Shown: positions 18,570 to 38,448 of the stretch, in pieces
Position numbering within the stretch: position 1 is the first letter of the stretch
How the letters are laid out: each line of letters opens with the position of its first letter
Assembly (NCBI RefSeq): GCF_016862995.1
Contig: NZ_BOOA01000034.1
Coordinates: forward strand, 1-64,000
Origin: Acrocarpospora phusangensis
GTDB taxonomy: Bacteria; Actinomycetota; Actinomycetes; Streptosporangiales; Streptosporangiaceae
Direction: 5' to 3'
DNA length: 64,000 nt
Translations under genes and position numbers: made by a program
Notes under the pieces: generated by a model
What the model saw: the letters and a program-made list of their open reading frames with translations, nothing else
Databases searched by the model: none
Told to the model about the DNA's origin: nothing

Positions 18570-20978
18570 ATGAGCGTTGACCACTTGAGACGCGACATCC
18601 AGGACGCGGAGCAGTTCTCGGCGAGCGTGCTGCGCCTGCTGGACGGCGCGCCCGTGCCGGAGGAGCTGGGCCGGAGCCTGAGCCGGGTCAGGGAGCAGGC
18701 CGACCAGGTGCTGACGGCGGCGCGGCAGCCGTACGTGCTGGGGGTGCTCGGGGAGTACAGCGCGGGCAAGACCATGCTGATCGCGTCGCTGCTGGGCCTG
18801 CTGGACGACCTGTCCATCGGGGACCGGCCGACCACCGGCAACGTCACCGCGTTCTGGCTGCGGCAGGGCCGGGACGGCAAGACCCGGATCTCCGAGTCCC
18901 GGGTCTCCTACATCTCCGCCAACACCCTGGCCGAGTACCAGCGGGCGCTCGGCGAGCAGCTCCGCGCGGCGGCCGGTGCGAGCGGCGGCGGCGCGTGGCT
19001 GACCGACGGGTTCCGCCGGGCGGTCGCCGAGGCGTCCGCGCCCGGCGGCAACGGCCGCATGCTCCGCGACTGGTACGACAACAGCAAGGGCTGCCCGCAC
19101 GACGTCGGCCGCCTGGCCACCCAGCTGGTGGCGATCACCGGGGCGGCGCACCGCTACCCCGCCCTGCTCGGCACCCGCGGCCGCGTCCCGCTCGACGAGA
19201 TCGGCCCGCTGCTGGTGATCACCGGCGAGCGCACCGAGTCCACCCGCGCCTCCATGGAGCCCGACCCGTTCTGGCTGGTACGGCACGTCGAACTGACCGT
19301 CGAGATCCCCGCCGAGGTGCTCGACCTGGACCGCCTGGTCGGCGCGTCGCCGTGGACCACCGGGAACACCACCGGGGACGCCACCGGGGACACCACCATG
19401 GCCGACCGGCTGGTCGTCTACGACTTTCCCGGCTTCCTCAACCACGTCTCCGGCGAGCGCGACCTGCTGCTCACCAGGACGATGCTGAAGGACATGGACA
19501 CGGTCGTCGCCCTGCTGAAGGCGGCGAACGCGGACGGCCCCGCCTCCGACCAGCTGGCCCGGCTGCTGCACGACGTGCCGGCCGGCGAGCGGCGCGGCCG
19601 GGTGCTGGTGGGCGTCGGCAACGTCAGCGACATCCCCGAGATCACCCGCCTCAGGTCGGCCGACGCGCAGCGGGCGGAGCACGAGGACGAGGTGCTGCGG
19701 CAGCTGCCCTCCCTCAAGGAGCTCCTCGACACGGCCGCCAAGCTCAGCCCGGACGAGCCGCCCTTCCTCTACTCGGGGCCGGTGGCGCTCGACCGGCTGG
19801 GCTTGGCGTACGGGCGGCTGGACGGCCGGCTGCGCGACGCGCTGGAGGTGGCCGCGGCGGCCGGCACGGTCGCGGCCCGGCTGCCCCTGGTGAGCAGGCT
19901 GCGGCCGATGCTGAGCGCGCTCGCCCTGGACGGCGGCCGCGAGTCGGTCCTGCGCCGCCTGGAGGAACGCCTCGCCGAGTACGGCCTGACCCGCCGCCAC
20001 CAGCGCGTCCAGGCCGAACGCCGGAGCCTCGACGCCGAGCTCGACCGGTTCGCCGCCGCCCTCGGCGAGAGCGCCCAGCAGGCGCGGGCCTCGGGCAACG
20101 CCGCCGTCAACCACCTGCTGAGCAGCTTCGAGGGCACCCTCACCTGGCTGAACGCGCAGTCCTCCCAGCTGCTCGCGGCGGCGCTCGCGGCCAGGACCGG
20201 CGCGGGCGGCCAGTCCGTCATCGCCGCGATCGAGCAGGACGTCACCAGCCGGGTCTTCGCCTGGCCGGAGTGGTGGCAGATCCTGTCCAGCACCGCGGGC
20301 GCCGAGGTGCAGAGCGGCCCGGAGACCACCGAGAGCTTCGCGCCCCGGTTCGAGGAGACCTGCGCGGCGGCGACCGCCACGGCCCGCGGCCGGACGCTGC
20401 TGCTGTGGGAGTCCGCGCTGATCCAGAGCGCGGAGCAGAGCATCACCCCGGAGGCCCGCGGGCTGGCCGGGAGCCTGGAGCTGGACGAGAAGGACCGGCG
20501 GCGGATCCGGCTGCTGACCGAGCCGTCGGAGTGGCGCGGCATGCTCACCAGCAAGGCCGCCGAGCTGGAGCCGCCGGAGGACCTGGGCACGGTGGCGGAC
20601 GCGTTCCCGATGCGCCGCCCGCACCGGTTCGCGTGGGCCATCCCGGAGAGCCGGCGGACCCATCTCGACGACGTGGAGCTGCGGCATCAGCTGCATCCCG
20701 CCCGGATCATCCGGATGCGGGAGGAGGTCGTCAAGGCGGCGATCATGGTCGTCCAGCGGCAGCTGGACGCGCTGCGGCCGCAGGCGGTGGCGTACGCGCA
20801 GCAGTACCTGGCCCGGCTGGCGGGGCTGCTCGGCCCGTTACGGGCGAGCGTCAACGCCGCGCCGGCGCCGGAGCAGGGCGCCCCGCTGCTGGACGAGCTG
20901 ACGCGGCTGCGCGCCCGGCCGGAGGAGGACCGGGCCGAGAAGAACCCGTGGGAAGACCTTGAGGAGCTGGGGGCATGA
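18570..20978 (+). CDS. Dynamin-like GTPase, first gene of an Hsp70-associated trio
   Basis: 802 residues. After a 50-residue helical lead comes a GTPase domain: P-loop GEYSAGKT (61-68), switch I with TTGN (about 91-94), and the G3 motif DFPG (285-288). A standard TKxD was not found; VGNVSDI (about 350) occupies that region. The long remainder is Leu/Arg/Ala-rich helix, as in the stalk of bacterial dynamins, with no obvious membrane segment. Bacterial dynamins remodel membranes or act in envelope stress and phage defence. The stop overlaps the start of the Hsp70-like gene (ATGA), so translation is coupled. Size and company recall SrfC-type proteins, but homology is not established. Confidence 0.85.
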   Translation: MSVDHLRRDIQDAEQFSASVLRLLDGAPVPEELGRSLSRVREQADQVLTAARQPYVLGVLGEYSAGKTMLIASLLGLLDDLSIGDRPTTGNVTAFWLRQGRDGKTRISESRVSYISANTLAEYQRALGEQLRAAAGASGGGAWLTDGFRRAVAEASAPGGNGRMLRDWYDNSKGCPHDVGRLATQLVAITGAAHRYPALLGTRGRVPLDEIGPLLVITGERTESTRASMEPDPFWLVRHVELTVEIPAEVLDLDRLVGASPWTTGNTTGDATGDTTMADRLVVYDFPGFLNHVSGERDLLLTRTMLKDMDTVVALLKAANADGPASDQLARLLHDVPAGERRGRVLVGVGNVSDIPEITRLRSADAQRAEHEDEVLRQLPSLKELLDTAAKLSPDEPPFLYSGPVALDRLGLAYGRLDGRLRDALEVAAAAGTVAARLPLVSRLRPMLSALALDGGRESVLRRLEERLAEYGLTRRHQRVQAERRSLDAELDRFAAALGESAQQARASGNAAVNHLLSSFEGTLTWLNAQSSQLLAAALAARTGAGGQSVIAAIEQDVTSRVFAWPEWWQILSSTAGAEVQSGPETTESFAPRFEETCAAATATARGRTLLLWESALIQSAEQSITPEARGLAGSLELDEKDRRRIRLLTEPSEWRGMLTSKAAELEPPEDLGTVADAFPMRRPHRFAWAIPESRRTHLDDVELRHQLHPARIIRMREEVVKAAIMVVQRQLDALRPQAVAYAQQYLARLAGLLGPLRASVNAAPAPEQGAPLLDELTRLRARPEEDRAEKNPWEDLEELGA

Positions 20979-23900
20979 CCGTGGAGATCGCGTTCCTGAA
21001 CGCGGAGGGTGTGCCGATCACCGAGTGGCGGGTACGCGCCGACGCGGAGTCGCAGACGATGCCGGTGCCGGTCGTGCGGTTCCAGGGCCGGGGCGACGTC
21101 GTCCTGCGGCGGGTGCGGATCACGGCCGGGGCCGGGGCGCCCGCGCGGGCGGCGGCGTTCGCGGAGCGTTGGACGCCGTCCCTGCCCGCCGAGGGCATGC
21201 TGCTGGCCGAGGGGAGCTGGTGGCGGCTGGCGTCGGCCGCGCCGGTCAGCCGCTCGGAGGTGCCGCCGGGGAGGACGGTGTTCGAGTGGACGGTGTCGTA
21301 CCAGGCCGCGGAGGGCGGCGGCGAGCGGGAGGCGAGCAGCCGGATCACCGTGGACGGCGGGGAGGAGCCCCGGGACCGGCACGACGGCTGGATCGCCCTG
21401 GACTTCGGCACCTCGACCACGTCCATCACCATGTTCGACCCCAAGAACCGGTACAACCTGCACGGCCTGCTCCCCAGCCAGACCGCCGTCATCCGCGAGG
21501 GCCTCGGCGAGGTGCTGGACAACCAGGACCCGGACGCGGTGCTGTTCGGCATGCGCGGCGCGGAGTGGCGGCGGGCCATGGAGAGCGTCGGCATCGCCCT
21601 GTCCCCCACCTACTCCCCCGGCTCCGACCCGCTGGCCACCGTGCGCGCCACCCTCGACACCGACCTCTACCGGCTGCTCATCGCCCTCGAACGGCACGCG
21701 GTGGACGCCTGGCAGCCGGGCCTCGCCACCGGCCTGCGCGCCCTGTACGGCGCCGCCTTCGCGATCCCCCCGATCGAGGAACACCGCATGGTGCGCATCC
21801 CGCTGCACGCCGAGGACGAGTTCACCATCTCCAGCGAGATCGAGATGGTCACCCTGGACCGGCCGCCCTCGGTACGCATGGCGAAGGAGGGGTACCGGCT
21901 GGACCGGGACGCGCCGGAGCTGCCCGCCCAGGTCCGCTACCAGCCGGGCCTGAAGCAGTTCATCGGCGCCGGCCGCCCGCTGCCGGGGCTGCCGGATGAC
22001 GCGCGGGCGCGGGTGACCACGGACGACGCGGTGGCGGCGGCCTGGCAGCGGCTGCTCCAGGACCGGGTGGCCGGCCACTGCCAGGCCCATCCCGACCTCT
22101 ACTCGACCAAGCCGATCACGCACGCGGTGATCACCTATCCGACGGCCGCGCCGCCGAAGACCCGCCTGGACTGCGAGGCCATCGCCCGCAAGATCGGGCT
22201 CCAGCAGGTCGTCACCGCCTACGACGAGGCCACCGCGGCGGCCATGTTCTACCTGATGCGCGACTTCGCGGGCGATCTGCCGGTCGGCATCGAGGCGTTC
22301 CGGGCGCGCTGCCGCCGGGACGGGGGCAGCCCCGTCTGGCACCGCAACATCCTGGTCGTGGACATCGGCGGCGGCACCACGGACATCGCGCTGATCGGCC
22401 TCACCCTGCGCGACGAGACCGAGTTCCGGCCCGGCAAGGGGCACGACGTGCAGGGCCGGTTCTACACGCTCAGGCCGACCGTCCGGGCCAAGGCGGGGCG
22501 GGCCCAGCTGGGCGGGGACGCCATCACCCGGGAGATCTTCCTGCGGCTCAAGGCGCAGCTGGCCGACGCGCTGCTGACCCGCAGCCCCGACCTGATCCAG
22601 GGCGAGTACCTGCCGTACCTGTCGGAGGGGGTGTACACGGCGGGCTCGCTGCTCGCGCCGCATCCGGACCCGGAGCGGGAGAGCGTGCGGATGGACCTGA
22701 TCGACGAGGTCATCCCCACCCGCTGGAAGCGGCGTCCCGGCGACGACCGGGTGCTGCTGCGGTTCCGGCTGCTCTGGGACGTGGCGGACCGGGCCAAGCT
22801 GGCGCAGTCGGCCGAGGAGGGCGACTACCCGGTCCGGCGGGTCGAGGAGCTGCTGCAGCTGGACGGCAAGGCCGCCGACGCCGTCTCGGAGATCGGCGAG
22901 GTGGTGCTCCGGCGGGCCGACCTGGCCGAGGCGATCAAGAGGGTGGCCACCAGCGCCTTCGACATCGGCGTCAACGTGGTCAAGAAAGCGCTGAGCAGGA
23001 ACGACGACGGCACCAGGGAACCCCTCGACTCGGTCATCATCTCGGGCGGCACCTCGGCGCTCCCGCAGATCAGGCGGGCGCTGCTGCGCTCGTTCACGGA
23101 GGCCGGCGACGACCTGCGGTGGAACCCGCTGAACGTGGTCTACGACGCGAAGTTCGCCAAGACCGCGACGTCCATCGGCGCCTGCTGGGCCGAGCACGTG
23201 CGCGCCAAGGGGTACCCGTCGGCGGGCAGCGCCATGCTGAGCGTCGGCGGCGGGCTGACCGAGCTGCACATCGACGTGAACAACCTGTTCCACTCGCTGG
23301 CCAACACCTTCGTGCTGGACGCGCTGAGCGAGCAGGACCGGCCGCTGTTCCTGATGGGCGCCGAGTTCGACCGCATCCAGACGGGCGCGGAGATCGACGG
23401 CCGGCTGCGCTCGGAGTGGCTGGACCCGCAGGAAGCGATCATGATCTACCGGCAGCCGTTCTCGCCGGAGGAGACGCAGAAGCCGATGTGGGCCAGCCTC
23501 AACCTGGACCACCTGCAGAAGCGGCAGGGCGACACCGGCCTCAGCCTCACCCGCTGGCGGCAGCAGGTGAAGGTCTGCTTCGAGATCGACGAGCGCACCT
23601 TCTTCACCGCCCACTTCTGCGCCGGCCGCGGCCCGATCCACCTGGTCGACTTCGCCGGCGCCGGAGCCACGCCCGACCTGGTCGAGCCGGGCGAGGACGG
23701 GGTGCCGGTGGTGCGCCACGACATCGTGGTCAACCCGCAGACGTCGGGCGGCATGGCCGCGGCCGGACAGGTGATCTTCGAGAAGGGCGCCCGCCTGACC
23801 GACCTCGTCCGCGGCGACGGCGGTCAGCCCCGCCCGGCGCTGATCAGCCGCCCCCTGCCGAAGGACGTCCCGGCCGACGGGGTGTGGTCGTTCTACTACC

Positions 23901-24160
23901 GGCGTCCGGGCGGGCCCGCCGACATCACGCAGATCGGGAAGGACCTGCCCGCGCCCGACGCCGGCCGGCTGGGGCCCGACCACGTGGCGGTCCTGGACGA
24001 GCGCGGGCGGCTGACCGTGCTGCGCGCGTACGTGCCGTACGAGCGGGCGGCGACGATGGCCGAGGTGGTGGAGCGGCCGGGCGCGGTGCTGAGCGTGCCG
24101 ATGGTGCCCGGGGACTCCGACGTGGACGACCGCCTCAACCCGTTCAACGGAATGCACTGA
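20975..24160 (+). CDS. Large Hsp70-like ATPase of the dynamin trio
   Basis: 1061 residues. An N-terminal domain of about 135 residues (beta-rich, no known match) precedes an actin/Hsp70-fold ATPase: phosphate-1 DFGTSTTS (143-150), phosphate-2 VVDIGGGTTDIAL (about 461-473) and adenosine motif ISGGTSALPQ (about 689). Large insertions separate them, and about 300 residues follow that do not look like a DnaK substrate-binding domain. This layout is unlike DnaK and closer to oversized Hsp70 relatives such as SrfB-type proteins. Start and stop both overlap neighbours by a few bases (ATGA), implying stoichiometric production with the GTPase. Cytoplasmic. Biochemical role unknown. Confidence 0.85.
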   Translation: MTVEIAFLNAEGVPITEWRVRADAESQTMPVPVVRFQGRGDVVLRRVRITAGAGAPARAAAFAERWTPSLPAEGMLLAEGSWWRLASAAPVSRSEVPPGRTVFEWTVSYQAAEGGGEREASSRITVDGGEEPRDRHDGWIALDFGTSTTSITMFDPKNRYNLHGLLPSQTAVIREGLGEVLDNQDPDAVLFGMRGAEWRRAMESVGIALSPTYSPGSDPLATVRATLDTDLYRLLIALERHAVDAWQPGLATGLRALYGAAFAIPPIEEHRMVRIPLHAEDEFTISSEIEMVTLDRPPSVRMAKEGYRLDRDAPELPAQVRYQPGLKQFIGAGRPLPGLPDDARARVTTDDAVAAAWQRLLQDRVAGHCQAHPDLYSTKPITHAVITYPTAAPPKTRLDCEAIARKIGLQQVVTAYDEATAAAMFYLMRDFAGDLPVGIEAFRARCRRDGGSPVWHRNILVVDIGGGTTDIALIGLTLRDETEFRPGKGHDVQGRFYTLRPTVRAKAGRAQLGGDAITREIFLRLKAQLADALLTRSPDLIQGEYLPYLSEGVYTAGSLLAPHPDPERESVRMDLIDEVIPTRWKRRPGDDRVLLRFRLLWDVADRAKLAQSAEEGDYPVRRVEELLQLDGKAADAVSEIGEVVLRRADLAEAIKRVATSAFDIGVNVVKKALSRNDDGTREPLDSVIISGGTSALPQIRRALLRSFTEAGDDLRWNPLNVVYDAKFAKTATSIGACWAEHVRAKGYPSAGSAMLSVGGGLTELHIDVNNLFHSLANTFVLDALSEQDRPLFLMGAEFDRIQTGAEIDGRLRSEWLDPQEAIMIYRQPFSPEETQKPMWASLNLDHLQKRQGDTGLSLTRWRQQVKVCFEIDERTFFTAHFCAGRGPIHLVDFAGAGATPDLVEPGEDGVPVVRHDIVVNPQTSGGMAAAGQVIFEKGARLTDLVRGDGGQPRPALISRPLPKDVPADGVWSFYYRRPGGPADITQIGKDLPAPDAGRLGPDHVAVLDERGRLTVLRAYVPYERAATMAEVVERPGAVLSVPMVPGDSDVDDRLNPFNGMH

Positions 24161-25275
24161 TGGCCGCCTTCGACGACCGGCTCAGGCTCCTCCTGGCCGG
24201 TCCCGGCCAGAGCTCCGCCCTGCTCGTGCGCTCCTTCCTGTACGGCCTCCGCGCCGGCCTGGCCGAACTCCCCCCGGACGACCAGGGCGTCGAGGAGGCC
24301 GCCGCCCTGGTCACGGCGATCGGCGACCTCCTCGACGGGCACCCGCCGATCACCCCGGCGCTTGCCGCGCCCGCCCCGGCGCCGGTCGTCCCAGTCGCGG
24401 ACGTCCAGCCGCCCGACGCCCTGCTCAACGCCTTGGCGGAGTTGCGCGACGCCGTGCTGCGGGACACCGGCGAACCGGCGGCGGCCGGTCCCCACGACGA
24501 CGCGGCCCAGGTGTGGACCACGCTGCACCTGGCCACCCTGCGCCTGCCCCGAGCGGACGCCGAGACGGTCCGCGACCAGGCCGCCGAGATCGCCGGGCGG
24601 AACGGCGCGGTCCTCACCACGCCCGCCCCCGAGGACACCGTCGCGGGGCTCACGAGCGAACGCCTGGTCCCCGGGCTGCGGATCGCCGACCAGGTGGTCG
24701 CGCCCGGCCTGTCCGTCTCCCCTGCCGGCCGTCCGCATCCCCTGCTCAGGCCGGCCGGGTCAGACGTGGCCACCGCGCCGCTGCACGCGCTGGCCGGGCA
24801 GGTGCTCACGCTGGCCGAGCGGGATCCCTGGCTGCGGCACTGCCTCCAGGTGCTGGAGTTCCTCGGCCTGTGCGAGCTGGCCAAGCCGGCCGAGCGCCGC
24901 AAGTTCGGCGATCACCTGGTCCGGCGGCAGCACGCGGCGGCGGGGGCGGAGCCGTACACGGCGGAGTGGCTGGACGCGCTCGTACGGCTGCACGAGGCGG
25001 TCTGCTCGGCGGTGCACCTGCCGCCCGCGCCCGACGACTCCTGGTGGGGCGAACGGCGTACGGCCTGCCACCAGGCCCTGGCGGCGGCGGCCCGCGCCAC
25101 CCCGGACGGGTCGGTCAAGTTCCCCCCGGCCCGCTACAAGGGCGTCGGCGACCTGACCAGGCAGGACATCGCCATCCAGCTGCCGCAGCGCTCGGGCCAG
25201 GTACTCGCCTGCGTGAAGGCGTGGTCCCGGATCGGCGGCGCGGAGAGCCAGGGACGGGTGATCTACGCGGGCTGA
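24160..25275 (+). CDS. Third protein of the dynamin/Hsp70-like trio, unknown family
   Basis: 371 residues; the ATG shares its first base with the preceding stop codon. Mostly helical, Ala/Leu-rich, with a Pro-rich linker near 68-82 (APAPAPVVPVADVQPP). Recognisable blocks include a helical central part (LRHCLQVLEFLGLCELAKPAERRKF) and a C-terminal segment ending SGQVLACVKAWSRIGG. No membrane segment, signal peptide or catalytic motif is visible. By position it is the partner or adaptor of the GTPase and Hsp70-like proteins, comparable in place to SrfA of srfABC loci, but I cannot show sequence kinship. Confidence 0.7.
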   Translation: MAAFDDRLRLLLAGPGQSSALLVRSFLYGLRAGLAELPPDDQGVEEAAALVTAIGDLLDGHPPITPALAAPAPAPVVPVADVQPPDALLNALAELRDAVLRDTGEPAAAGPHDDAAQVWTTLHLATLRLPRADAETVRDQAAEIAGRNGAVLTTPAPEDTVAGLTSERLVPGLRIADQVVAPGLSVSPAGRPHPLLRPAGSDVATAPLHALAGQVLTLAERDPWLRHCLQVLEFLGLCELAKPAERRKFGDHLVRRQHAAAGAEPYTAEWLDALVRLHEAVCSAVHLPPAPDDSWWGERRTACHQALAAAARATPDGSVKFPPARYKGVGDLTRQDIAIQLPQRSGQVLACVKAWSRIGGAESQGRVIYAG

Positions 25276-25468
25276 CCAGGATCCGCGAAATGAAAGTTTC
25301 ATGCGCTCCGGCTTTCCGGGCATTCTCCGGTGCGCGGCCCAGACGATCGCCCCAGATCCGGAGATCCCCGCAGGGAACGGCGTAATTTCCCGCCCCCAAC
25401 AACTGGCCCTAATGCCATGTGATGGATAACGTTGCGGAGGACTCGCGCCGAGTTCCACCTGTTCAAGG

Positions 25469-25482
25469 TGGGAGCGTTCCCA
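25469..25482. promoter_or_regulatory. CebR/CelR-type box 1
   Basis: TGGGAGCGTTCCCA differs at one base from TGGGAGCGCTCCCA, the operator of the cellobiose-responsive LacI-family repressors CebR (Streptomyces) and CelR (Thermobifida). It lies 178 bp upstream of the NRPS start and 126 bp upstream of box 2. Confidence 0.7.
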
Positions 25483-25594
25483 CGACCGATTCCGGCCGCA
25501 GGCGAGTTCGGCTGAGGCGGTGCCACTACGGCGGCCCGAATTCCGGGCTGCCGATATTAGCGGTGCCGTGAAGAGTTGACTGGACCATGCAGGA

Positions 25595-25608
25595 TGGGAG
25601 CGCTCCCA
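25595..25608. promoter_or_regulatory. CebR/CelR-type box 2, perfect match
   Basis: TGGGAGCGCTCCCA is identical to the CebR/CelR consensus operator. It lies 39-52 bp upstream of the NRPS GTG start and 13 bp past a TTGACT -35-like element, where a bound repressor would cover the -10 region. Confidence 0.8.
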
Positions 25609-25646: not shown

Positions 25647-28600
25647 GTGACGCGGGCCGAACTCTCGCCCGCCCAGCGTTCCCGGCTCGCCCAGCGGTTC
25701 CGCCAAGGAGCCGCCGGCCTGTCCATCCAGCCCCGCCCGCCGGGCACCGCGCCCCCGCTCTCGTACGCGCAGGAGCGGCTCTGGTTCCTGGAGCAGTACG
25801 CGCCGGACACCCCGGCCCACACCGTCTCCTTCGCGGTCCGGGTGGACGAGGCCGTCGACGAGCCGGCCATGGCCGCCGCGCTCCGCGACCTGACCGCCCG
25901 GCACGAGGCCCTGCGCACGCGCTTCGCCGTCACCGAGGACGGCGAACCCCAGGTCCTGCTGGACGCGCCCGACGCCGAGTTCACGGTGGACGACGACCCG
26001 TCGCGGCTCCAGCGGGAGCTGGACCGGCCGTTCGACCTGGAACGCGGGCCCCTGGTCCGGGTGCTCGTGCTCAGGCTCGGCCCCGCCGAGTCGGCGCTGC
26101 TGCTGACCATGCACCACAGCGTCACCGACGGCTGGTCCTGCGACATCGCGATGGAGGAGCTGTTCGCGCTCTACGCCGCCAGGAGGACCGGGACGCCCGC
26201 CCGGCTCGCGCCCCTCGCCGCGCAGTACGGCGACTACGCGCGCTGGCAGCGGGAGCGCTCGCACGACGGCGACATCGCGTACTGGAAGAGCCGGCTGGCC
26301 GGGCTGCCGCCGCTGGACCTGCCGACCGACTTCCCCCGGCCGCCCGAGCAGCGGTGGGAGGGCGCGGCCCATGACGTCTGGATCGACGCCGAGCTGACCG
26401 AGGCGCTCACGGTACTCGGGCGCGGGCACGGGGCGACGCCGTACATGACCGTGCTGGCCGCGTTCCAGGTGCTGCTGTCCCGGTTCTCCGGGCAGGAGGA
26501 CTTCGCGGTCGGCTCGCCGGTGTCGGGACGGGACCTGGTCGAGCTGGAGCGCATGGTCGGGGTGTTCGTCAACTCGCTGGCGATGCGCGCGGACCTGTCC
26601 GGCGACCCGACGTTCACCGAGCTGCTCCAGCGGACCAGGGAGACGTGCCTGGACGCGTACACGCACCAGGAGCTGCCGTTCGACCGGCTGGTGAGCGAGC
26701 TGGCCGTCGAGCGGGACGTGTCCAGGCCGCCGGTGTTCCAGGTGCTGTTCGCGCTGCACAACTACCGGTCCGGCTGGCTGAGGACGCCGGGGCCGGCGCT
26801 GGAGGCGTTCCCGGTGCCGACCGTCTCCAGCCGGTTCGACCTGGCGTTGTACCTGTTCCAGACGCCGGGCGGGCTGACGGGGACGTTCGTCTACTCCACG
26901 GCGCTGTTCCGCGCCGAGACGATGGACCGGCTGAACGCCTGCTTCGTCCGGCTGCTGCGCTCCATCGCGGCCGATCCGGACGTGCCGATCTCGGCGCTGG
27001 AGCTGGCGCCGGAGGAGGAGACGGCCGAGGTGCTGGCCTTCGGGGCGAGCGAGCCGCCGGTTCCGTTCACCGGCGCGGGAACGTTGCACGAGGCGATCGC
27101 GGCGCAGGCCGCCCGTACGCCCTGGGCCACGGCCGTCGTGTGCGGGGACCGGTCACTCACGTACGCCGATCTGGACGGGCTGGCCGGCGAGCTGGCCGGC
27201 CGGCTGCGGCGGCTGGGGGCGGGCCCGGGGCACCGGGTGGGGGTCTGCCTGGAGCAGTCGGCCGAGTCGGCGGTGGCGGTGCTCGGGGTGCTCAAGTCGG
27301 GCGCCGCGTACCTGCCGCTGGATCCCGAGCATCCGAAGGACCGGCTCGCGTACGTCCTGGCGGACGCGGGGGCCGAACTGGTGGTCACCGAGGGCCCGCT
27401 GCTCGATCGCCTGCCGGACGGGGTGAGCCCCGTCCTGGTCGGGGACCCGGCGAGCCAGGGCTCGAGCCTCGGCGAGGACACCGGCGGCGCGCACGCCGGG
27501 CCCGGGGACCTCGCGTACGTGATCTACACGTCCGGCACGACCGGGCGGCCGAAGGGCGTCGCCGTCCAGCACCGGGAGGTCATGACCTACCTGGCGGGCG
27601 CGCACGAGCGCCTGGGCATCGAGCCGGGCGCGTCGTTCGCGCTGCTCCAGTCGCTGGCGTTCGACTTCGCGGTGACGGTCTTCTACCTGTGCCTGATGAC
27701 CGGCGGCACAATGGACCTGATCGCCTCCCGGACGGCGGGCCCCGATCTGGCCGCGCGGTTCCGGAGCAGGCCGCCGGACTACCTCAAGATCACGCCCTCC
27801 CACCTGGCGGCACTGACCGCGGACACGCCCGCCGCCGAGCTGCTGCCCCGGCGGCTGCTGATCCTGGGCGGGGAGGCCGCCGACGGCGGATGGGCGGGCG
27901 AGCTGGCCCGGATCTGCCCGGTGGTCAACCACTACGGCCCGACCGAGGCCACGGTGGGCGTCACGACGTACCGGATCGAGGGCGAGCCGGGCGGGACGCT
28001 GCCGATCGGCAGGCCGCTTCCCGGGGCGCGGGTGCACGTGCTGGACCGGAGCCTGCGGCCGGTCCCGGTGGGCGTGCCCGGCGAGGTGTACCTGGGCGGC
28101 GAACGGCTGGCGCGGGGGTACCTCAACCGGCCGGGGCCGACCGCCGGGAGCTTCCTTCCCGACCCGTACGGCGCGCCGGGCGCGCGCATGTACCGCACCG
28201 GCGACCTGGCCCGCTGGCTGCCCTCCGGGGACCTGGAGTTCCTCGGCCGCCGCGACCATCAGCTCAAGATCCGCGGATACCGGGTCGAACCCGCCGAGAT
28301 CGAGGCCGTCATCGGCGGCTCCTGCGTGGTCGTGCCCCGCGACGGCCGCCTGGTGGCCTACCTGGCGGGCGACCCCGTCCCGGACGCGGAGCTGCGCGAC
28401 CGGCTCGGCCGTACCCTGCCCGACTACATGATCCCTGCCCAGTTCGTCTGGCTGGAGGAGCTCCCGCTCAAGTCCCACGGCAAGATCGACCGCGACCGGC
28501 TGCCCGAGCCGGCCGCCCTCCCGGCCGGCGAGTACGTCCCGCCGGCCACCGACTCGGAACGCGCCGTCGCCGAGATCTGGTCCGAACTGCTCGGCGCGGA

Positions 28601-30950
28601 GCGGGTCGGCGCGCTGGACGACTTCTTCCACCTCGGCGGTCACTCCCTGCTGGCGATGCGGGTGATCGCGCGCCTGCGCAAGGCCGCGCCGCACCGGACC
28701 GTGACCGTGCTCGACCTGTTCAAGCACCGCACCGTACGCGACCTGGCCCGGCTCCTCGACACCGGCGACAGCGGCCCGAAACGGTTCCTGCACCGGTTCA
28801 CGCCACCCGGCAAGACGACGAAGGGCACGCTGGTCTGCGCGCCGTACGGCGGCGGCAGCGCGGTCATCTACAAACCGCTCGCCGACGTCATGCCGGACGG
28901 CTGGCAGCTGCTCTCCATCGCCGTCCCCGGCCACGAACTCGGCGAGGAGGGCCGCCCGATCACGGAGGTCGCCGACGGCTGCGTGGCCGAGATCCTGGCC
29001 GGCGTCACCGGCCCCCTCGTCCTGTACGGCCACTGCGGCCTGGGCGTCATGCTCACCGTGGAGATCGCCCGCAAACTGGAGGCGGCCGGCCGCGAGGTGG
29101 AGGCCGTCTACCTGGGCGGCATCTTCCCGTTCGGCCGCCCGAAGGGCCGCCTGGCCGGGCTCTCCCGGGTGATGGAACGCCTGCGCAGCGACCAGATCTG
29201 GGCCAACGCCCTGCAGTCGGCCGGGCTGGACATCGACGAGCTCGACCCGGCCCAGCTGAAGCTGATCATCGACAACCGCCGGAAGGGCACCCGGGAGGCC
29301 GAGCAGTACTTCACGAACCTGTTCGAGGAGAACACCGAACGGCTGCGCGCGCCCGTCATCTCGGTGGCCGGGGAACGCGACCCGGCCTGCGAGTTCTACC
29401 AGGAGCGCTACCGCGAGTGGCACCTGCTGAGCGACTGCGTGGCCGGGGTGGTGCTGGACGAGGCCGGGCACTTCTACCTGAAGTACCGCGCCGAGGAGCT
29501 GGCCACGATCGTGACCGGCGTGCACACGGCCATCGCCGGGGACGCCACCGAACCTTTGCGGCGGACCGAACGCTCCACGTGGTGGCTGGAGGGGCTGTCC
29601 CGCAAGGACGTGATGGCCGACGAGGACGGGCTGGCGCTCGGGCCCCAGCCGAGCATGCGCCGGTTCTTCGCGGTGGCAGCCGGGCAGCTCATCTCCTGGA
29701 CGGGGTCGGCGCTGACCGACTTCGCCATCCCCGTGTGGATCTACGTCACCACGGGGTCCTTGGCCAACTTCACGCTGTTCGCCGTGCTCGGCCTGGTGCC
29801 CGGCATGCTGATCTCCCCCGTGGCGGGCGCGATCGTGGACCGGTACGACCGGCGTACGATCATGATCCTCGGGGATGTGGCCGCGGGCGGGGTGCAGCTC
29901 ATCCTGGGCGTGCTGGCGTGGACCGGGAACCTCCAGGTCTGGCACATCTATCCGCTGATCGTGGCGTTGTCGCTGTCGCTCACGTTCCAGCGCTTCGCGT
30001 ACATGTCGGCGGTTCCGCAACTGGTGCCCAAGCAGTACCTGGGCCACGCCAACGGCGTGGTGGCGACCGTGACCGGATCGGCCATGCTGCTGGTGCCGCT
30101 CATGGCGGTCGGGCTGATGTCGGTGATCGGGCTGGGCGGCATCCTCGTGCTGGACGTGGTCAGCTACGTGGCCGCGACCCTCGTCGCGCTCTGCGTCCGG
30201 TTCCCCAGGACGATGGCGTGGCGGCGCAGGGAGAGCCTGATCGAGGAGATCAAGGGCGGCATCCGGCACTCCTGGGGCAACTTCAACTTCCGGGCCATGC
30301 TGCTCTGGTTCGCCGTGCTCAACGTGTTCCTCGCCCCGCTGTGGCTGATGTTCACGCCGCTGGTGCTGTCCTTCGCGACGCTGCCCGACATCGCGCGCGT
30401 CTCGCTGGCCGGCGGGGTCGGCGGCCTGCTCGGCGGCCTGGTGATGAGCGTCTGGGGCGGGCCGCGCAAGTACCGGCTGCGCGGGGTGTTCCTGGCCACG
30501 CTCGGGTTCGCGGTCTTCTGCGGCGTCGTCGGGGCCCGCTCCGACCTGACCCTGATCGCGGCGGGCGCGTTCGGCATGGCCTTCTTCATGACCCTGATCA
30601 ACGGCCAGTACGCCACCATCATCCAGGTCAAAGTGCCCCAGCGCTTCCACGGCCGGGTGATCGCGCTCAACACGCTGGTGGCCTGGTCGACCCTGCCGTT
30701 CGGCTACATCGTGGTCGTGCCGTACGGGTCGGAGCTGTTCAAGCGGATCGGCGAGGCGACCGGCCTGGGCTCGGACCGCGGCATCGGCCTGCTCTACGTG
30801 GTGTGCGGCCTGGCCATCGCGGTCATCGCGCTGGTCGCGCTGCGGATCAGGACACTGGCCCGTTTCGACGAGGAGGTACCGGACGCGATGGCCGATGACC
30901 TGGTGGGCACCGAGGCGCTCAGGCGCCGGCTTGAGAAGGTCGCGCCATGA
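25647..30950 (+). CDS. NRPS C-A-PCP-TE fused to an MFS transporter
   Basis: 1767 residues from the GTG at 25647; an in-frame ATG at 25587 would place box 2 inside the gene, so GTG is preferred although its ribosome-binding site is weak. Order: condensation (about 35-450, HHSVTDG at 156-162), adenylation (about 475-910, YTSGTTGRPKG, YGPTEATVG, KSHGKIDRD), carrier (Ser1000 in LGGHS), thioesterase (about 1018-1300) with the nucleophile elbow GHCGLG, i.e. Cys1130 instead of Ser, plus GERDPA and AGHFY for the Asp and His, then a 12-helix-like MFS permease (about 1336-1767). Binding-pocket residues read by eye as DFTSIGHVG, nearest to Asp-type codes. Makes, releases and probably exports a small peptide. 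Confidence 0.92.
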   Translation: MTRAELSPAQRSRLAQRFRQGAAGLSIQPRPPGTAPPLSYAQERLWFLEQYAPDTPAHTVSFAVRVDEAVDEPAMAAALRDLTARHEALRTRFAVTEDGEPQVLLDAPDAEFTVDDDPSRLQRELDRPFDLERGPLVRVLVLRLGPAESALLLTMHHSVTDGWSCDIAMEELFALYAARRTGTPARLAPLAAQYGDYARWQRERSHDGDIAYWKSRLAGLPPLDLPTDFPRPPEQRWEGAAHDVWIDAELTEALTVLGRGHGATPYMTVLAAFQVLLSRFSGQEDFAVGSPVSGRDLVELERMVGVFVNSLAMRADLSGDPTFTELLQRTRETCLDAYTHQELPFDRLVSELAVERDVSRPPVFQVLFALHNYRSGWLRTPGPALEAFPVPTVSSRFDLALYLFQTPGGLTGTFVYSTALFRAETMDRLNACFVRLLRSIAADPDVPISALELAPEEETAEVLAFGASEPPVPFTGAGTLHEAIAAQAARTPWATAVVCGDRSLTYADLDGLAGELAGRLRRLGAGPGHRVGVCLEQSAESAVAVLGVLKSGAAYLPLDPEHPKDRLAYVLADAGAELVVTEGPLLDRLPDGVSPVLVGDPASQGSSLGEDTGGAHAGPGDLAYVIYTSGTTGRPKGVAVQHREVMTYLAGAHERLGIEPGASFALLQSLAFDFAVTVFYLCLMTGGTMDLIASRTAGPDLAARFRSRPPDYLKITPSHLAALTADTPAAELLPRRLLILGGEAADGGWAGELARICPVVNHYGPTEATVGVTTYRIEGEPGGTLPIGRPLPGARVHVLDRSLRPVPVGVPGEVYLGGERLARGYLNRPGPTAGSFLPDPYGAPGARMYRTGDLARWLPSGDLEFLGRRDHQLKIRGYRVEPAEIEAVIGGSCVVVPRDGRLVAYLAGDPVPDAELRDRLGRTLPDYMIPAQFVWLEELPLKSHGKIDRDRLPEPAALPAGEYVPPATDSERAVAEIWSELLGAERVGALDDFFHLGGHSLLAMRVIARLRKAAPHRTVTVLDLFKHRTVRDLARLLDTGDSGPKRFLHRFTPPGKTTKGTLVCAPYGGGSAVIYKPLADVMPDGWQLLSIAVPGHELGEEGRPITEVADGCVAEILAGVTGPLVLYGHCGLGVMLTVEIARKLEAAGREVEAVYLGGIFPFGRPKGRLAGLSRVMERLRSDQIWANALQSAGLDIDELDPAQLKLIIDNRRKGTREAEQYFTNLFEENTERLRAPVISVAGERDPACEFYQERYREWHLLSDCVAGVVLDEAGHFYLKYRAEELATIVTGVHTAIAGDATEPLRRTERSTWWLEGLSRKDVMADEDGLALGPQPSMRRFFAVAAGQLISWTGSALTDFAIPVWIYVTTGSLANFTLFAVLGLVPGMLISPVAGAIVDRYDRRTIMILGDVAAGGVQLILGVLAWTGNLQVWHIYPLIVALSLSLTFQRFAYMSAVPQLVPKQYLGHANGVVATVTGSAMLLVPLMAVGLMSVIGLGGILVLDVVSYVAATLVALCVRFPRTMAWRRRESLIEEIKGGIRHSWGNFNFRAMLLWFAVLNVFLAPLWLMFTPLVLSFATLPDIARVSLAGGVGGLLGGLVMSVWGGPRKYRLRGVFLATLGFAVFCGVVGARSDLTLIAAGAFGMAFFMTLINGQYATIIQVKVPQRFHGRVIALNTLVAWSTLPFGYIVVVPYGSELFKRIGEATGLGSDRGIGLLYVVCGLAIAVIALVALRIRTLARFDEEVPDAMADDLVGTEALRRRLEKVAP

Positions 30951-32332
30951 CCCCCGAGGACCGCGCGGAGCTGGTCAAACGGCTGGCGGAGCTGCCGCCC
31001 GAGCGGCGGGAGGCGCTGCGCAGGTCGCTGGCCGAGCAGGCGGACGGGATGGCCTGGCCGCTCTCCTCCGGCCAGGAGCGGCTGTGGTTCCTGAGCAGGT
31101 TCGACCCGGACGACACCGGCTACCACATGATGTGGCACGTACGGCTGCACGGCGCGGTGGACCACGCCGGGCTGGTGTGGGCCTTCTCCCGGATCGTGGC
31201 CAGGCACGAGGTGCTGCGCACCCGGTTCCTGCTCCGGAGCGACCGGCCCGCGCAGGTCGTCAGGGACCCCGAGACGGTGCCGGTGGAGCGGATCGCCGGC
31301 GGCGGCCAGGACGCCGTGGTCGCGTTCGTCAACCGGCCCTTCGACCTGAGCAGGGACCTGCCGATCCGGGTGGCGCTGATCGGCGACGGCGACGCGCACC
31401 TGCTGTGCATGGTGATCCACCACATCGCCGGCGACGCCTGGTCCCTGGACGTGCTCATGCGCGAGCTGGCCGAGTGCTACGCCGCCTACCAGGAGGGCCG
31501 CGAACCCGCCCTGCCGCCCCTGACCCTGCAGTACCGGCATTTCGCCGTGTGGGAGCGGAAGCGGCAGGACCCGCGCGCCCTGGAGTGGTGGGCCGAGTGG
31601 CTCGCCGGGGTGCCGCCGCTGGACCTGCCCGTCGACCGGCCGCGGCCGAAGCGGTGGAGCGGGCAGGCCGTCCGCGCGTACGTGTCCGTGCCCGACGACG
31701 CCGCGACCCGGCTGGAGGACCTGGCCAAACAGGAGCGCTGCACCCCGTTCATGGCGCTGGTGGTGGCGTTCCAGGCCGGCATGGGCCTGCTGGCCGGGCA
31801 GGAGGACTTCGCCGTGGGCGTGCCCGTGCACGGCCGGGACCGGCCCGAGTTCGCGACGCTGATCGGCTGCTTCTCCAACACGATCGCGGTCCGCGCCGAC
31901 CTGTCCGGCGACCCCACCTTCCGCGAGCTGCTGCGCCGGGCCCGCGGGCCGTTCCTGCGTGCGCTGCAGAACTCCGGCACGCCGTTCGAACGGGTGCTGA
32001 ACGCGGTCCAGCCGCCCCGGGACCTGAGCCGCCCGCCGCTCTGCCAGGTCGTGTTCAACCTGACCCACGACCTGCCCAAGGCCGACCTGTTCCGGACCAC
32101 CCTGGGCGACCTGCGGGTGGAGACGTGCGAGCCGCTGCGCGTCACCCAGGCCAGGGCGGAGGTGCTCGGGGAGATCTACCGGGACTCCTCCGGCGTCGGC
32201 GGCTGGCTCGAGTACAACAGCGACCTGTTCTCCGCCGAGACGGGACACCTCATCGGCGAGACCTTCACCGGCCTGGTCCATCGCGCGGGCAAGCACCCGG
32301 ACCTGCGCCTCTCCCACCTGAAAGGCATGTGA
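30947..32332 (+). CDS. Stand-alone NRPS condensation domain (C1)
   Basis: 461 residues, ATG overlapping the previous stop (ATGA). A helical lead of about 35 residues (LPPERREALRRSLAEQ) precedes one condensation domain (LSSGQERLWFL, RHEVLRTRF, YRHFAVWERKR, NTIAVRADLSGDPTF, RPPLCQVVFNL). The active-site motif is HHIAGDA (158-164): His159 and Asp163 are kept but the final Gly is Ala. It should form a peptide bond between two carrier-bound substrates in trans, most simply serving the A-PCP protein encoded one base downstream. The lead resembles a docking helix and recurs in the last gene of the operon. Confidence 0.9.
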   Translation: MTPEDRAELVKRLAELPPERREALRRSLAEQADGMAWPLSSGQERLWFLSRFDPDDTGYHMMWHVRLHGAVDHAGLVWAFSRIVARHEVLRTRFLLRSDRPAQVVRDPETVPVERIAGGGQDAVVAFVNRPFDLSRDLPIRVALIGDGDAHLLCMVIHHIAGDAWSLDVLMRELAECYAAYQEGREPALPPLTLQYRHFAVWERKRQDPRALEWWAEWLAGVPPLDLPVDRPRPKRWSGQAVRAYVSVPDDAATRLEDLAKQERCTPFMALVVAFQAGMGLLAGQEDFAVGVPVHGRDRPEFATLIGCFSNTIAVRADLSGDPTFRELLRRARGPFLRALQNSGTPFERVLNAVQPPRDLSRPPLCQVVFNLTHDLPKADLFRTTLGDLRVETCEPLRVTQARAEVLGEIYRDSSGVGGWLEYNSDLFSAETGHLIGETFTGLVHRAGKHPDLRLSHLKGM

Positions 32333-32333
32333 G

Positions 32334-34144
<1,811 letters not shown>

Positions 34145-34148
<4 letters not shown>

Positions 34149-37096
34149 AAGCGCCCCTCTCCCCCGCCCAGGAACGCCTCTGGGCGCTCCAGCGGCTGGA
34201 GCCCGGCAACTCCGCCTACAACTGCCATCTGGTCCGGCGGCTGGAGGGCCCCCTCGACCGCGCCGCCTTCGACCGCGCGGTCGCCCTGGTCGCGGCCCGG
34301 CACGAGAGCCTGCGCACCCGCTTCGTCGAGGAGGACGGTGTGCCGTGGGCCGTCGCGGGCACGCCCGCCACGGTGGACTGGCGGCGGGCGGCGGACGAGG
34401 CCGAGGCGGTGGAGCTGGTCGCCGACCTGGTGGGCCGCCCGTTCGACCTGATGGCGGGCACGCCGGTACGGATCTCGGTGATCGAGATCGCCGACGCCGA
34501 CCCGGCCGAGCACGTGCTGTGCGTGGTGCCGCACCACATGGTCGCGGACGGCTGGTCTCTCCAGATCCTCCTGGCCGACCTGGCCGAATGCTACGACGCC
34601 TCGGTGGCGGGGCGGGCGCCCGAGCTGGCGCCGCTGCCGATCCAGCCCAGCGACTTCGCGCGCTGGCAGCGCAGGCGGGACGAGCGGGCCGCGCCGTTCT
34701 GGCTGGAGCGCCTGGCCGACCCGCCGCCGCCCGACCTGCCGTTCCGCGCGGCCGGCACGGCGAGCGGGCGGGGCGGCTTCCACCGGATCGAGATCCCGCC
34801 CGAGGTGGCGCGCGGGCTCGAACGGGTGGGCCGGGAGCGGCGGGCGACGCTGTTCATGGTGCTCACGGCCGCCTACCAGGCGCTGATCTCCCGGCACACC
34901 GGCCGGCGCGACGTGCTGGTGGGCACGGCGGTGGCGGCCAGGGAACGGGCCGGGCTGGAGCCCATCGTCGGGTTCCTGTCGCAGGTCGTGGTGCTGCGCG
35001 GGGACCTGAGCGACGACCCCGCCTTCGCCGAACTGGTGGACAGGACCCGGGCGGACGCGGTGACGGCGCTCGGGCGGCCGGCCGTACCGTTCGAGCGGTT
35101 CGCGCAGCCCTCCGAGATCCTGGTGCCGAGCCTGTTCATCCTGCACAACCAGACGCCCGGCAGGGACGGGTCGTTCGGCGGGCTCACCATGAGCCGGTTC
35201 GAGGACGGGTACCGGCAGGCCAAGGTGGACATCTGCATCGACGCCTGGCATGACGGCAGCCGGATCCTCATGTCCATCAACTACGACGTCGGCCTGTTCG
35301 AGGAGGCGGACATCGCCCTGCTGGGCGAACGATTCCTGCGGCTGCTCGAATCGGCGGCGGCCGACCCGCGGGAGCGGGTGTCGCGGCTGGCGATGGCGGA
35401 CCCGGCGACGGAGCCCGTCCCCGTCCCAATCGAGGTCCCGGTCGAGCCCGTCCCGTTCACGCTGGGCGGGCCGCCGGACGCGGTGGCGCTGATCTGCGGC
35501 GACGACTGGATCACGTACGGGAACCTGGACGAGCGCGCCGGGGAGGTCGCGGAACGGCTGCGCGCGGCGGGAGTCACGACCGGGGATCTGGTGGGCGTCC
35601 GCCTGCCGCGCTCGGTGGAGTTGATCGCGACGCTGCTGGCGGTGTGGCGGCTGGGCGCGGCGTACCTGCCGCTGGACCCGGACGATCCGGACGAGCGCGT
35701 CGCGTTGCTGGCCGAGCCCGCGCATCACGTCGTCACGTCCGAGGGCGTCGTCCCGGGCGGGGGCGTGGGGAGGTATCCGGGGGCCGCGTACGTCATCCCG
35801 ACGTCGGGGACGACGGGCGTGCCCCGGGGAGTGGTCGCCGAGCGGGCCGGGGTCGAGGCCCGGGTGCGGTGGATGCGGGAGGCGTACCGGCTGGGGGCGC
35901 GGGACCGGGTGGTGCAGTTCTCTGCGCTGAGCTTCGACGCGCACGTCGAGGAGGTGTTCCCGGCGCTGGCGGCGGGCGCGGCGCTGGTGCTGCTGCCGGA
36001 CGGCGCGGCCACCCTGCCGGACCTGCTCAGGTCGGCGGCGGGGCGCGAGGTGACCGTGCTGGACCTGCCGACCGCGTACTGGCACCGGCTGGTGGACGTG
36101 ATCGACGAGATCGCCTGGCCCGCCGGCCTGCGGCTGGTGATCCTCGGCGGCGAGCAGGTCATGGCCCCCTCGGTGGAGCGCTGGCGGGACCGGTTCGGGG
36201 ACACGGTGCGCCTGCTCAACACGTACGGCCCGACGGAGGCGACGGTGATCGCGACCGTCGCCGAGCTGGGCGCGGCGGACGCGCGGCGGCGGCCGTCCAT
36301 CGGGACCGCGATCGGCGGCGCGTCCGCGGCGGTGCTCGACGAGCGGGGCGAGGCGGCCCCGGCGGGGGTGGTGGGCGAGCTGGCGCTGGGCGGGATCGGC
36401 GTCGCCCGCGGCTACCTCGGGCGGCCCGGCCTGACCGCGGGCCGGTTCGTGCCGGACCCGTACAACCCGGGCGGGCGCCGCTACCTGACCGGGGACCGGG
36501 CGCGGTGGCGGGCCGACGGCGGCCTGGAGTTCCTCGGCCGGGCCGACGACCAGCTCAAGGTGCGCGGCTTCCGGATCGAGCCGGGCGAGGTGGAGAGCCA
36601 CCTGCTCAGGCACCCCGAGGTGGCGCAGGCGTACGTGACGGCGCGCCAGGACGACCTGGTCGCCTACTACGCGGGCACCGCCGACCCGGTGGACCTGCGG
36701 GCCGACCTGGTCGCCCGGCTGCCGCGGCAGCTGGTGCCGACCGTGTGGGCGCGGCTGGACGCGCTGCCGCTCACCAAGGGCGGCAAGGTGGACAGGTCCG
36801 CGCTGCCGAAGCCGGAGCGCGCCGGCGCGGCCGAGCGGGTGGCGCCGCGCACCGACGCGGAGGAGTTCGTGGCCTCGATCTGGTGCGCGCTGCTCGGCCT
36901 GCCCGAGGTGGGGGTGTACGAGGACTTCTTCGAGCTGGGCGGGCACTCGCTGCTGGCCACCCGGATGGCGGCCAGGATCCGGGCCGGGATCGGCGTGGAG
37001 GTGCCCATCCGCGTCCTGTTCGAGCAGAGCACGGTGGCGGGGCTGGCCGAGGTGCTGGAGGACCTGCTGCTGGCGGAGATGGCGGCCGAGGAGTGA
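34145..37096 (+). CDS. NRPS C-A-PCP module protein
   Basis: 983 residues from the ATG at 34145, overlapping the previous stop (ATGA). Condensation domain about 1-425 with HHMVADG (130-136); adenylation about 440-880; carrier Ser935 in LGGHS. Two features are unusual in the A domain: core A3 reads TSGTTGVPRG with Arg561 where Lys is usual, and the preceding residue is Pro instead of Tyr. Pocket residues read by eye as DAETIGTVI, nearest to Lys-type codes. No epimerase or methyltransferase insert. Ends in an acidic tail near the start of the next gene. Confidence 0.92.
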
Positions 37097-38448
37097 TCTC
37101 GCCGGATCTGCGCGCCGCCCTGCTCGACCGGCTCGCCAAGGTCCCGCCCGAGCGGCGGGAGGCGCTGCGGCGCACGCTCGGCGAGAAGGGCGGCCTGCCG
37201 CTGTCCCCCGGGCAGGAGCGGGTCTGGTTCCTCAGCAGGTTCGATCCGGAGGACACCAGCTACCACGTGCCGTGGTGCGTCTGGCTGCGCGGCCCCGTAC
37301 GGCCGGAGGCGCTGGCCGGGGCGTTCGCCAGGATCGCGGCCCGGCACGAGGTGCTGCGCGCCCGCTTCAGGATGACCGGCGAGGGGCCCCGGCAGTTCAT
37401 CCTGCCGCCGGGCCCGGTCACCCTGGAGCGGGGCGAGCTGCTCGGCGACCCGGCGCCGCCGGTGGACGCGTTCGTCAACCGGCCGTTCGACCTGGAGGTG
37501 GAGCCGCCCTGGCGGGTCGCCCTGCTGCGGGTGACCGGCGAGCGCATGCTGCTCTGCATCGTGCTGCACCACATCGCCGCCGACGGCTGGGCGCTGGACG
37601 TGCTCATGCGCGAGCTGGCCGAGTGCTACGCCGCCGCCGTCGAGGGCCGCGAGCCCGACCTGCCCGACCTGCCGATGCGCTTCACCGAGTACGCGGCGAG
37701 CGAACGGAACCGGGACAGCGGCCCCCAGCTGGCGTTCCTGGCCGAGCGGCTGGCCGGGACGCCCAACCTGGACCTGCCGGCCGACCGCCCCCGGCCGCCC
37801 CGCTGGACCGGGCACGGAGCCGCCGTACGGTTCGAGGTGCCGGGCGAGGTCGTCCGGGGCCTGGAGCGCTTCTCGCGGCGGGAGCGGTGCACCCCGTTCA
37901 TGGTGCTGATGGCGGCCTTCCAGGCCACCCTGGGCGCCACCGCCGGGCAGCGCGACTTCTGCGTCGGCGTCCCCGTCGCCGGCCGTTCCAGGGCCGAGTA
38001 CGCGCCGATGATCGGCTCCTTCGCCAACACGCTGGCGGTGCGGGCGGACCTGTCCGGGGACCCGGCTCCCGGCGAGCTCGCCAGGCGGGTCAGGAAGGCC
38101 GTGATCGAGGTGATGACGCGGGCGGACGCGCCGTACGAGAAGGTGATCGCGGCGTTGCGGCTGCCGCGCGACCTGAGCAGGCTGCCGCTCTGCCAGGCCA
38201 TGTTCGCGCTGCAGAACACCCCGCAGGACGACATGCTGCGCCCGGCCATCGGCGACCTGGAGGCCGAGTTCTACCCCGGCCCCGGCTCCCGCTACACCAA
38301 GGCCGAGGTGGCGGTGCAGCTGTGGCCGCTGGGCGACGGGCTGGCCGGCATCCTCGACTACAGCGCCGACCTGTTCGCCGAGCGGTCCATGCGCGCGCTC
38401 GCCGACCGCTTCACCGGCACGGTCGCGCGGTTCACCCTTCCCGCTTGA
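37093..38448 (+). CDS. Stand-alone NRPS condensation domain (C2)
   Basis: 451 residues from a GTG overlapping the previous stop (GTGA). Same layout as the C protein at 30947: helical lead (VPPERREALRRTLGEK), then one condensation domain with intact HHIAADG (159-165), WFLSRFDPEDTSYH, RHEVLRARF, NTLAVRADLSGDPAP. No carrier or adenylation domain. It could mediate the final transfer onto the C-A-PCP-TE protein, or release by amide or ester formation. Its 3' end overlaps the convergent rlmG gene by 17 bp, marking the end of the operon. Confidence 0.9.
   Translation: MISPDLRAALLDRLAKVPPERREALRRTLGEKGGLPLSPGQERVWFLSRFDPEDTSYHVPWCVWLRGPVRPEALAGAFARIAARHEVLRARFRMTGEGPRQFILPPGPVTLERGELLGDPAPPVDAFVNRPFDLEVEPPWRVALLRVTGERMLLCIVLHHIAADGWALDVLMRELAECYAAAVEGREPDLPDLPMRFTEYAASERNRDSGPQLAFLAERLAGTPNLDLPADRPRPPRWTGHGAAVRFEVPGEVVRGLERFSRRERCTPFMVLMAAFQATLGATAGQRDFCVGVPVAGRSRAEYAPMIGSFANTLAVRADLSGDPAPGELARRVRKAVIEVMTRADAPYEKVIAALRLPRDLSRLPLCQAMFALQNTPQDDMLRPAIGDLEAEFYPGPGSRYTKAEVAVQLWPLGDGLAGILDYSADLFAERSMRALADRFTGTVARFTLPA

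Follow-up and report, generated by a model that had tools for sequence, protein, structure and literature searches.

The window, the first 64,000 nucleotides of contig C34 in the 9.11-Mb genome of Acrocarpospora phusangensis, contains a run of five nonribosomal peptide synthetase (NRPS) genes on the forward strand, N1 to N5, whose frames overlap or adjoin and hold no internal stops. N1 (25647..30950) encodes a C-A-T-TE protein fused to an MFS exporter and is followed by a free-standing condensation domain (N2, 30947..32332; motif HHIAGD), an adenylation-carrier protein (N3, A-T, 32334..34148), a condensation-adenylation-carrier protein (N4, C-A-T, 34145..37096; A3 motif TSGTTGVPRG) and, as the last gene of the run, a second free-standing condensation domain (N5, 37093..38448; motif HHIAADG). 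These assignments were made from Pfam matches and core motifs, which place C, A, T and TE domains in open frames from 25647 onwards. The thioesterase of N1 is a Pfam Thioesterase match (E = 8.4e-15), and a search of it for the pattern GxSxG gave no match. Adenylation codes were read by hand at PheA-type positions from printed A-domain segments, giving DFTKIGHVGK for N1, DILQLGVVWK for N3 and DAELIGTVIK for N4. With the PheA anchor positions and the code table that we take to apply, N1 would be Asp-like, N3 Gly-like and N4 perhaps specific for a basic residue, the last assignment being uncertain. The expected product would be a short peptide, built from Asp-like, Gly-like and perhaps basic residues and exported through the MFS domain of N1; we claim no particular compound. 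Among the matches listed, NCBIfam gave no equivalog above cut-off for ten proteins (the best 25 matches in two of these tables), and the papers listed on NRPS-MFS fusions offered nothing fitting.

Between a protein kinase gene (16286-17800) and the NRPS genes lies a three-gene block (18570-25275), with one gene weakly SrfB-like (below cut-off) and the others without a Pfam family. The block had no match between kinase and NRPS in three orthologous Acrocarpospora loci and is likely an insertion; defence-system models run against it returned a weak LeoA match and nothing else.

Two unstranded CebR boxes precede N1. Box 2 (25595-25608) is the exact 14-bp palindrome TGGGAGCGCTCCCA, and box 1 (25469-25482), TGGGAGCGTTCCCA, differs from it by one mismatch, with 126 bp from start to start. 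The sequence-only reading had described exactly this, an exact CebR/CelR operator and a one-change box 126 bp away in front of an NRPS operon, and both the boxes and the operon hold up. The longest open reading frame of N1 begins at ATG 25587, a start that puts the exact box inside the gene. GTG 25647 is the more likely start codon, as it is conserved in four Acrocarpospora species and has GGGGG 8-12 bases upstream; relative to it, the exact box occupies positions -52 to -39. When the promoters of the four Acrocarpospora species were aligned, both boxes proved invariant, with the same sequences in A. corrugata, A. macrocephala and A. pleiomorpha, and much of the intervening DNA was variable; no clear -10/-35 elements were recognised in the window's N1 promoter in this alignment. 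Taken within the window, the box statistics are weak evidence (3 matches with at most 2 mismatches compared to 0.71 expected, 3 being reached in 2 of 100 shuffles), and the strong evidence comes from the genome-wide excess rather than from the window count.

Across the genome we found 27 distinct boxes with at most one mismatch (15 exact and 12 with one mismatch), as opposed to a single match for the same pattern read backwards, which served as control. The sequence-only reading had asked whether the genome holds other boxes, and those found include several at cellulase genes. Exact boxes stand beside genes for GH6-CBM2 (C22), GH12-fn3-CBM2 (C41), GH9-CBM2 (C100) and a CBM2 protein (C1), at cebE (C69) and, at C34:85988, about 1 kb from a second GH9 gene; one-mismatch boxes were found at GH5-CBM2 (C151), at another GH9 gene (C1:216898) and between a GH48 gene and an NRPS gene (C166). 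One exact box each lies at the NRPS genes of the window, of C69 and of C165. The remaining exact boxes comprise two on C31 (L011, 5420 and 8046) that flank a LacI-protein kinase gene pair, one on C47 with a family-5 solute-binding protein gene on one side and a LacI gene on the other, one that follows a GH1 gene where a contig ends (C69:40579), and one each on C51 and C87 next to genes without a Pfam match. A GH15/trehalase-like gene has a box in front of it at C1:116986, and some of the one-mismatch boxes fall within predicted genes. Judged by these gene neighbours, a cellulose regulon fits most of the boxes but not all, several being located at genes without a clear link to cellulose.

The genome also encodes a cebR/celR orthologue, another point raised by the sequence-only reading, and on this check the reading was not refuted. 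It is located outside the window, on C69, where it forms a cebEFG-bglC-cebR operon that has a box pair to itself (of the two permease genes, one was assigned by gene call only). LacI-family helix-turn-helix matches number 41 in the genome, and 40 of these proteins were recovered for comparison; the helix GVGRGTVSRVING occurs in one of the 40, namely the ceb-operon protein. In the PDB it matches 5ysz best, at 412 bits compared to 156 for the next entry, and GVGRGTVSRVINGS is common to both. 5ysz is described as 'Transcriptional regulator, LacI family', and we take it to be T. fusca CelR; no paper on this structure turned up among the literature matches listed. The LacI gene of the window (59624-60637) lies 34 kb from the boxes and has the helix SIATVSRVLNG, unlike that of CebR.

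We searched 200 genomes of Streptosporangiaceae for box pairs, with the reversed pattern as control. Pairs with a gap of 105-133 bp occurred in 76 of the 200 genomes (reversed control, 1 of 200), and the 30 loci examined consisted of 28 cebE promoters and 2 Acrocarpospora NRPS promoters. These numbers bear on whether the boxes might be bound mainly by another LacI protein, be it that of C31, that of C47, a CebR-like paralogue or the protein encoded at 59624, in which case a different sugar would be the inducer. Exact boxes do adjoin the LacI genes of C31 and C47, CebR-like paralogues with the helix SRATVSRVVNG are present in the genome, and Anderson 2012 (PMC3377646) describes palindromes that resemble the CelR site, but with altered ends, at another transporter operon of S. 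roseum. Against this, the recognition helices differ, GVGRGTVSRVING being confined to the ceb-operon protein among the 40 compared and recurring in 5ysz; it is the ceb operon that carries the pair in 28 of the 30 loci; and the paralogues may use GAGAGCGCTCTC-type sites instead. We regard binding by another LacI protein as unlikely and the CebR of C69 as the better candidate.

To assess conservation at orthologous NRPS genes, 27 actinobacterial relatives fetched by their exporter domain (L037-L063; L064-L072 were left out) were scored for boxes. An exact box together with a one-mismatch box precedes the NRPS in 9 of the 27, namely in all three Acrocarpospora orthologues and in 6 of the 24 others. 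In A. corrugata, A. macrocephala and A. pleiomorpha, whose orthologues are 85-91% identical in the exporter domain, the boxes are 117-125 bp apart. A wider pair (198-200 bp) was found in four Microbispora, Microtetraspora malaysiensis and Streptosporangium pseudovulgare. No such pair was detected in 18 of the 27, including three other Streptosporangium; the contig of one of the 18, L047, ends upstream. Eight sequences of the wider type were aligned, and in these each box directly follows, on the 3' side, an invariant -35/-10-like pair. Each of the two divergent promoters has its own set of elements, either TTGAC- and TAGCCT-like or TTGACA- and TACGCT-like, and the boxes thereby occupy the usual position of a repressor site. 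When the box label was mapped on a quickly built NRPS tree with 44 rows, it required 5 changes compared to a mean of 14.5 after shuffling (0 of 500 shuffles as low), a figure helped by near-identical rows. L042 and L187 are the same sequence, and L047 carries the label 'no box' despite its contig end. Rows aligned over fewer than 500 aa were left out of the tree; three of them (L040, L045 and L048) have no box, and the fourth, L135, has none at up to one mismatch.

That the boxes are relics or chance matches without effect on the NRPS genes is, in our judgement, highly improbable. The modest statistics of the window, equalled in 2 of 100 shuffles, would agree with such a reading; it does not account for boxes that are identical in four Acrocarpospora species amid largely divergent DNA, for a pairing that recurs in other genera, or for the genome-wide excess of 27 over 1. 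The operator is conserved at orthologous targets and shared with cellulase genes of the same genome, as in a CebR/CelR regulon. DNA looping between phased boxes was also considered. The spacings (117, 124, 125, 126, 129, 130, 134, 166, 184, 198 and 200 bp) correspond to 11.14 to 19.05 turns and have no common helical phase, so looping is not supported.

Besides the window, three more NRPS promoters of this genome bear boxes: near cebR (C69), beside GH48 (C166) and on C165. The C69 NRPS lies 2.7 kb beyond cebR, has the order C-A-T-TE-MFS by similarity, and is followed by genes for a carrier, a glycosyltransferase, E1-alpha, E1-beta, E2 and GH1; its promoter carries an exact box and, 134 bp further up, a box with two mismatches, and a glycosyltransferase gene diverges from it. 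The exact box of this type was present in four of the four Acrocarpospora genomes in which the gene was found. On C166, the order is GH48, box, NRPS, likewise in four of four other Acrocarpospora, and on C165 a box pair separates divergent condensation and adenylation genes. C165 (6.1 kb) and C166 (5.7 kb) are short contigs and could be parts of one cluster. Four of the six NRPS-MFS paralogues in the genome (C58, C125, C12 and C43) have no box with up to one mismatch, although on C12 a box with two mismatches stands about 150 bp ahead of the C domain.

In the family survey, pairs with a gap of 170-200 bp were found in 34 of the 200 genomes (reversed control, 0 of 200). Of 30 such loci examined (flanks up to 1.5 kb), 18 contain a window-type NRPS at an identity of at least 58%, one has a match at 35%, and 11 have no match. 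In 13 of the 18 genomes with the wider pair at a window-type NRPS, this pair is located 23.7-30.3 kb from the cebE pair; as for the remaining five, the two pairs are 1.3 Mb apart on a single contig in G102 and fall on separate contigs in the other four. G068, G041 and G119 share the order GH1, box pair, NRPS genes, convergent cebR-bglC-cebG-cebE and sulfatase, with 0.2, 4.3 and 6.7 kb, respectively, between the last NRPS gene and cebR. In G041 this interval holds genes for a POR-domain oxidoreductase and for an AsnC-type regulator. The operon divergent from the G041 NRPS, beside GH1, encodes the components E1-alpha, E1-beta and E2 of a 2-oxoacid dehydrogenase complex, a possible source of branched acyl starters. 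Judging from several NRPS promoters here and the ceb-locus neighbourhood in relatives, the predicted CebR link is wider than the sequence-only reading saw.

A second palindrome, ATGAAAGTTTCAT (25290..25302, unstranded), lies upstream of the boxes and is a possible operator of a second regulator, as suggested by its genome copy counts. The sequence ATGAAASTTTCAT has five genome copies (control 0), three of them beside box-bearing NRPS genes (C34 25290-25302, C69:28602 and C166:3005), and the core TGAAASTTTCA has 16 (control 0), six of which fall within 600 bp of a CebR box compared to 0.05 expected for uniform placement. The palindrome is kept at other Acrocarpospora NRPS loci: the cebR-near NRPS has it in four of four, and its core recurs at the GH48-NRPS in five of five and upstream of the A. 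corrugata orthologue of the window NRPS. It resembles the TGAAANTTTCA site reported at cellulase genes of Actinospica robiniae (PMC3377646). Given this palindrome near the boxes, cellobiose alone may not suffice for expression. The operon could be under joint control, with CebR and a second regulator acting at ATGAAAGTTTCAT and little product on cellobiose alone; we consider this possible, though on the improbable side, and it is compatible with the CebR mechanism. It is supported by the clustering of copies at boxes and at box-bearing NRPS genes. It is weakened by two negative results: around the boxes of the window-type NRPS in A. macrocephala and A. pleiomorpha, TGAAASTTTCA was not found out to 600 bp, nor was it found at the NRPS boxes of Microbispora-type loci.

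We hold it very probable that CebR represses the N1-N5 operon and that cellobiose relieves this repression. CebR binding, repression and relief at the N1 promoter would carry over from known CebR/CelR biology to a locus whose boxes, box conservation, CebR orthologue, cellulase-shared operator and open operon frames are visible in the DNA. In the proposed mechanism, the boxes at 25469-25482 and 25595-25608 would be operators of the LacI-family CebR encoded on C69. Without cellobiose, CebR would sit on both boxes and block transcription of the operon (25647-38448). Cellobiose freed by cellulases would be imported by CebEFG and would release CebR from the boxes, and the exporter-fused NRPS operon would then be expressed along with the cellulases, the transporter and the beta-glucosidase. 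Since the NRPS genes of this soil actinomycete and its relatives share the switch of cellulose digestion, growth on plant cell walls is probably the condition under which the small peptide is made.

The closest precedent is thaxtomin of S. scabiei, for which the primary CebR paper is reportedly Francis 2015. The sequence-only reading had invoked CebR control of the thaxtomin NRPS cluster, in agreement with PMC5332605 and PMC8914351, which describe CebR sites in that cluster and repression relieved by cellobiose. According to PMC12527672, the thaxtomin sites are imperfect; one lies within txtB, the other far upstream of both txtR and txtA. There, repression acts via the activator TxtR, whereas here a perfect and a near-perfect box stand directly before the NRPS start, in an operon laid out C-A-T-TE-MFS, unlike the thaxtomin cluster. 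No Pfam match indicated a TxtR-like AraC-type gene among the scanned genes (16286-45477 and the LacI gene at 59624). A point of caution from PMC8914351 is that most S. scabiei clusters that respond to cello-oligosaccharides lack direct CebR control, thaxtomin being the exception; according to the same paper, the other responding clusters have no CebR sites, unlike the cluster of the window. For the rotihibin NRPS cluster of S. scabiei, PMC8552735 reports proteins that rise with cellobiose, also with glucose, independently of cebR.

The CelR/CebR cellulase regulons of Thermobifida fusca, Streptomyces and Streptosporangium roseum have the same operator, ceb operon and cellulase targets as here (PMC3377646 and PMC4898821). 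In contrast to our locus, the main text of PMC3377646 names no NRPS target, and the words 'nonribosomal' and 'non-ribosomal' are absent from it. The same paper reports a site in the coding region of an A. mirum polyketide synthase, sites near pyruvate dehydrogenase-like and protein kinase genes of S. roseum, and protein kinases near CelR sites in both S. roseum and T. bispora, which may be compared with the LacI-kinase pair of C31. The pyruvate dehydrogenase-like genes of S. roseum may be the E1/E2 operon divergent from the window-type NRPS. The sequence GGGAGCGCTCCC appears in at least six papers, of which four are on Streptomyces, one is on site prediction using thaxtomin sites and one is a review (PMC5332605, PMC4898821 and PMC12527672 are among the six). 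Among the literature matches listed, judged by title or start of abstract and with subscription papers and supplements outside the scope, none reported CebR or cellobiose control of an NRPS in Streptosporangiaceae. In the literature covered, direct CebR control of a peptide cluster appears limited to thaxtomin, and the conservation and the fusion with cellulose loci found here appear to be new.

A broader reading, which we put forward tentatively and at a little below even confidence, is that an exporter-fused NRPS family of Streptosporangiaceae is built firmly into the cellulose regulon, with members close to cebR, next to the GH48 cellulase gene and under paired CebR operators, its peptides being a standing part of cellulose feeding by non-pathogens rather than host toxins. 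The named relatives are not known as plant pathogens. If this reading is true, the peptides might defend the cellulose patch, protect cellulases or supply metal to oxidative cellulases. With the predicted CebR switch, cellobiose would be a named and cheap inducer for otherwise cryptic peptide clusters in rare actinomycetes. The finding also suggests that CebR control of specialised metabolites, reported as direct in the literature covered for a single plant-pathogen toxin, is old and repeated in cellulose-degrading actinomycetes.

Two further box arrangements were observed. In six genomes of one other genus (L116-L121), two exact boxes lie 192-206 bp from each other and enclose a TGAAASTTTCA palindrome, and L126 has three exact CebR boxes (1501, 1596 and 1691) at 95-bp intervals.
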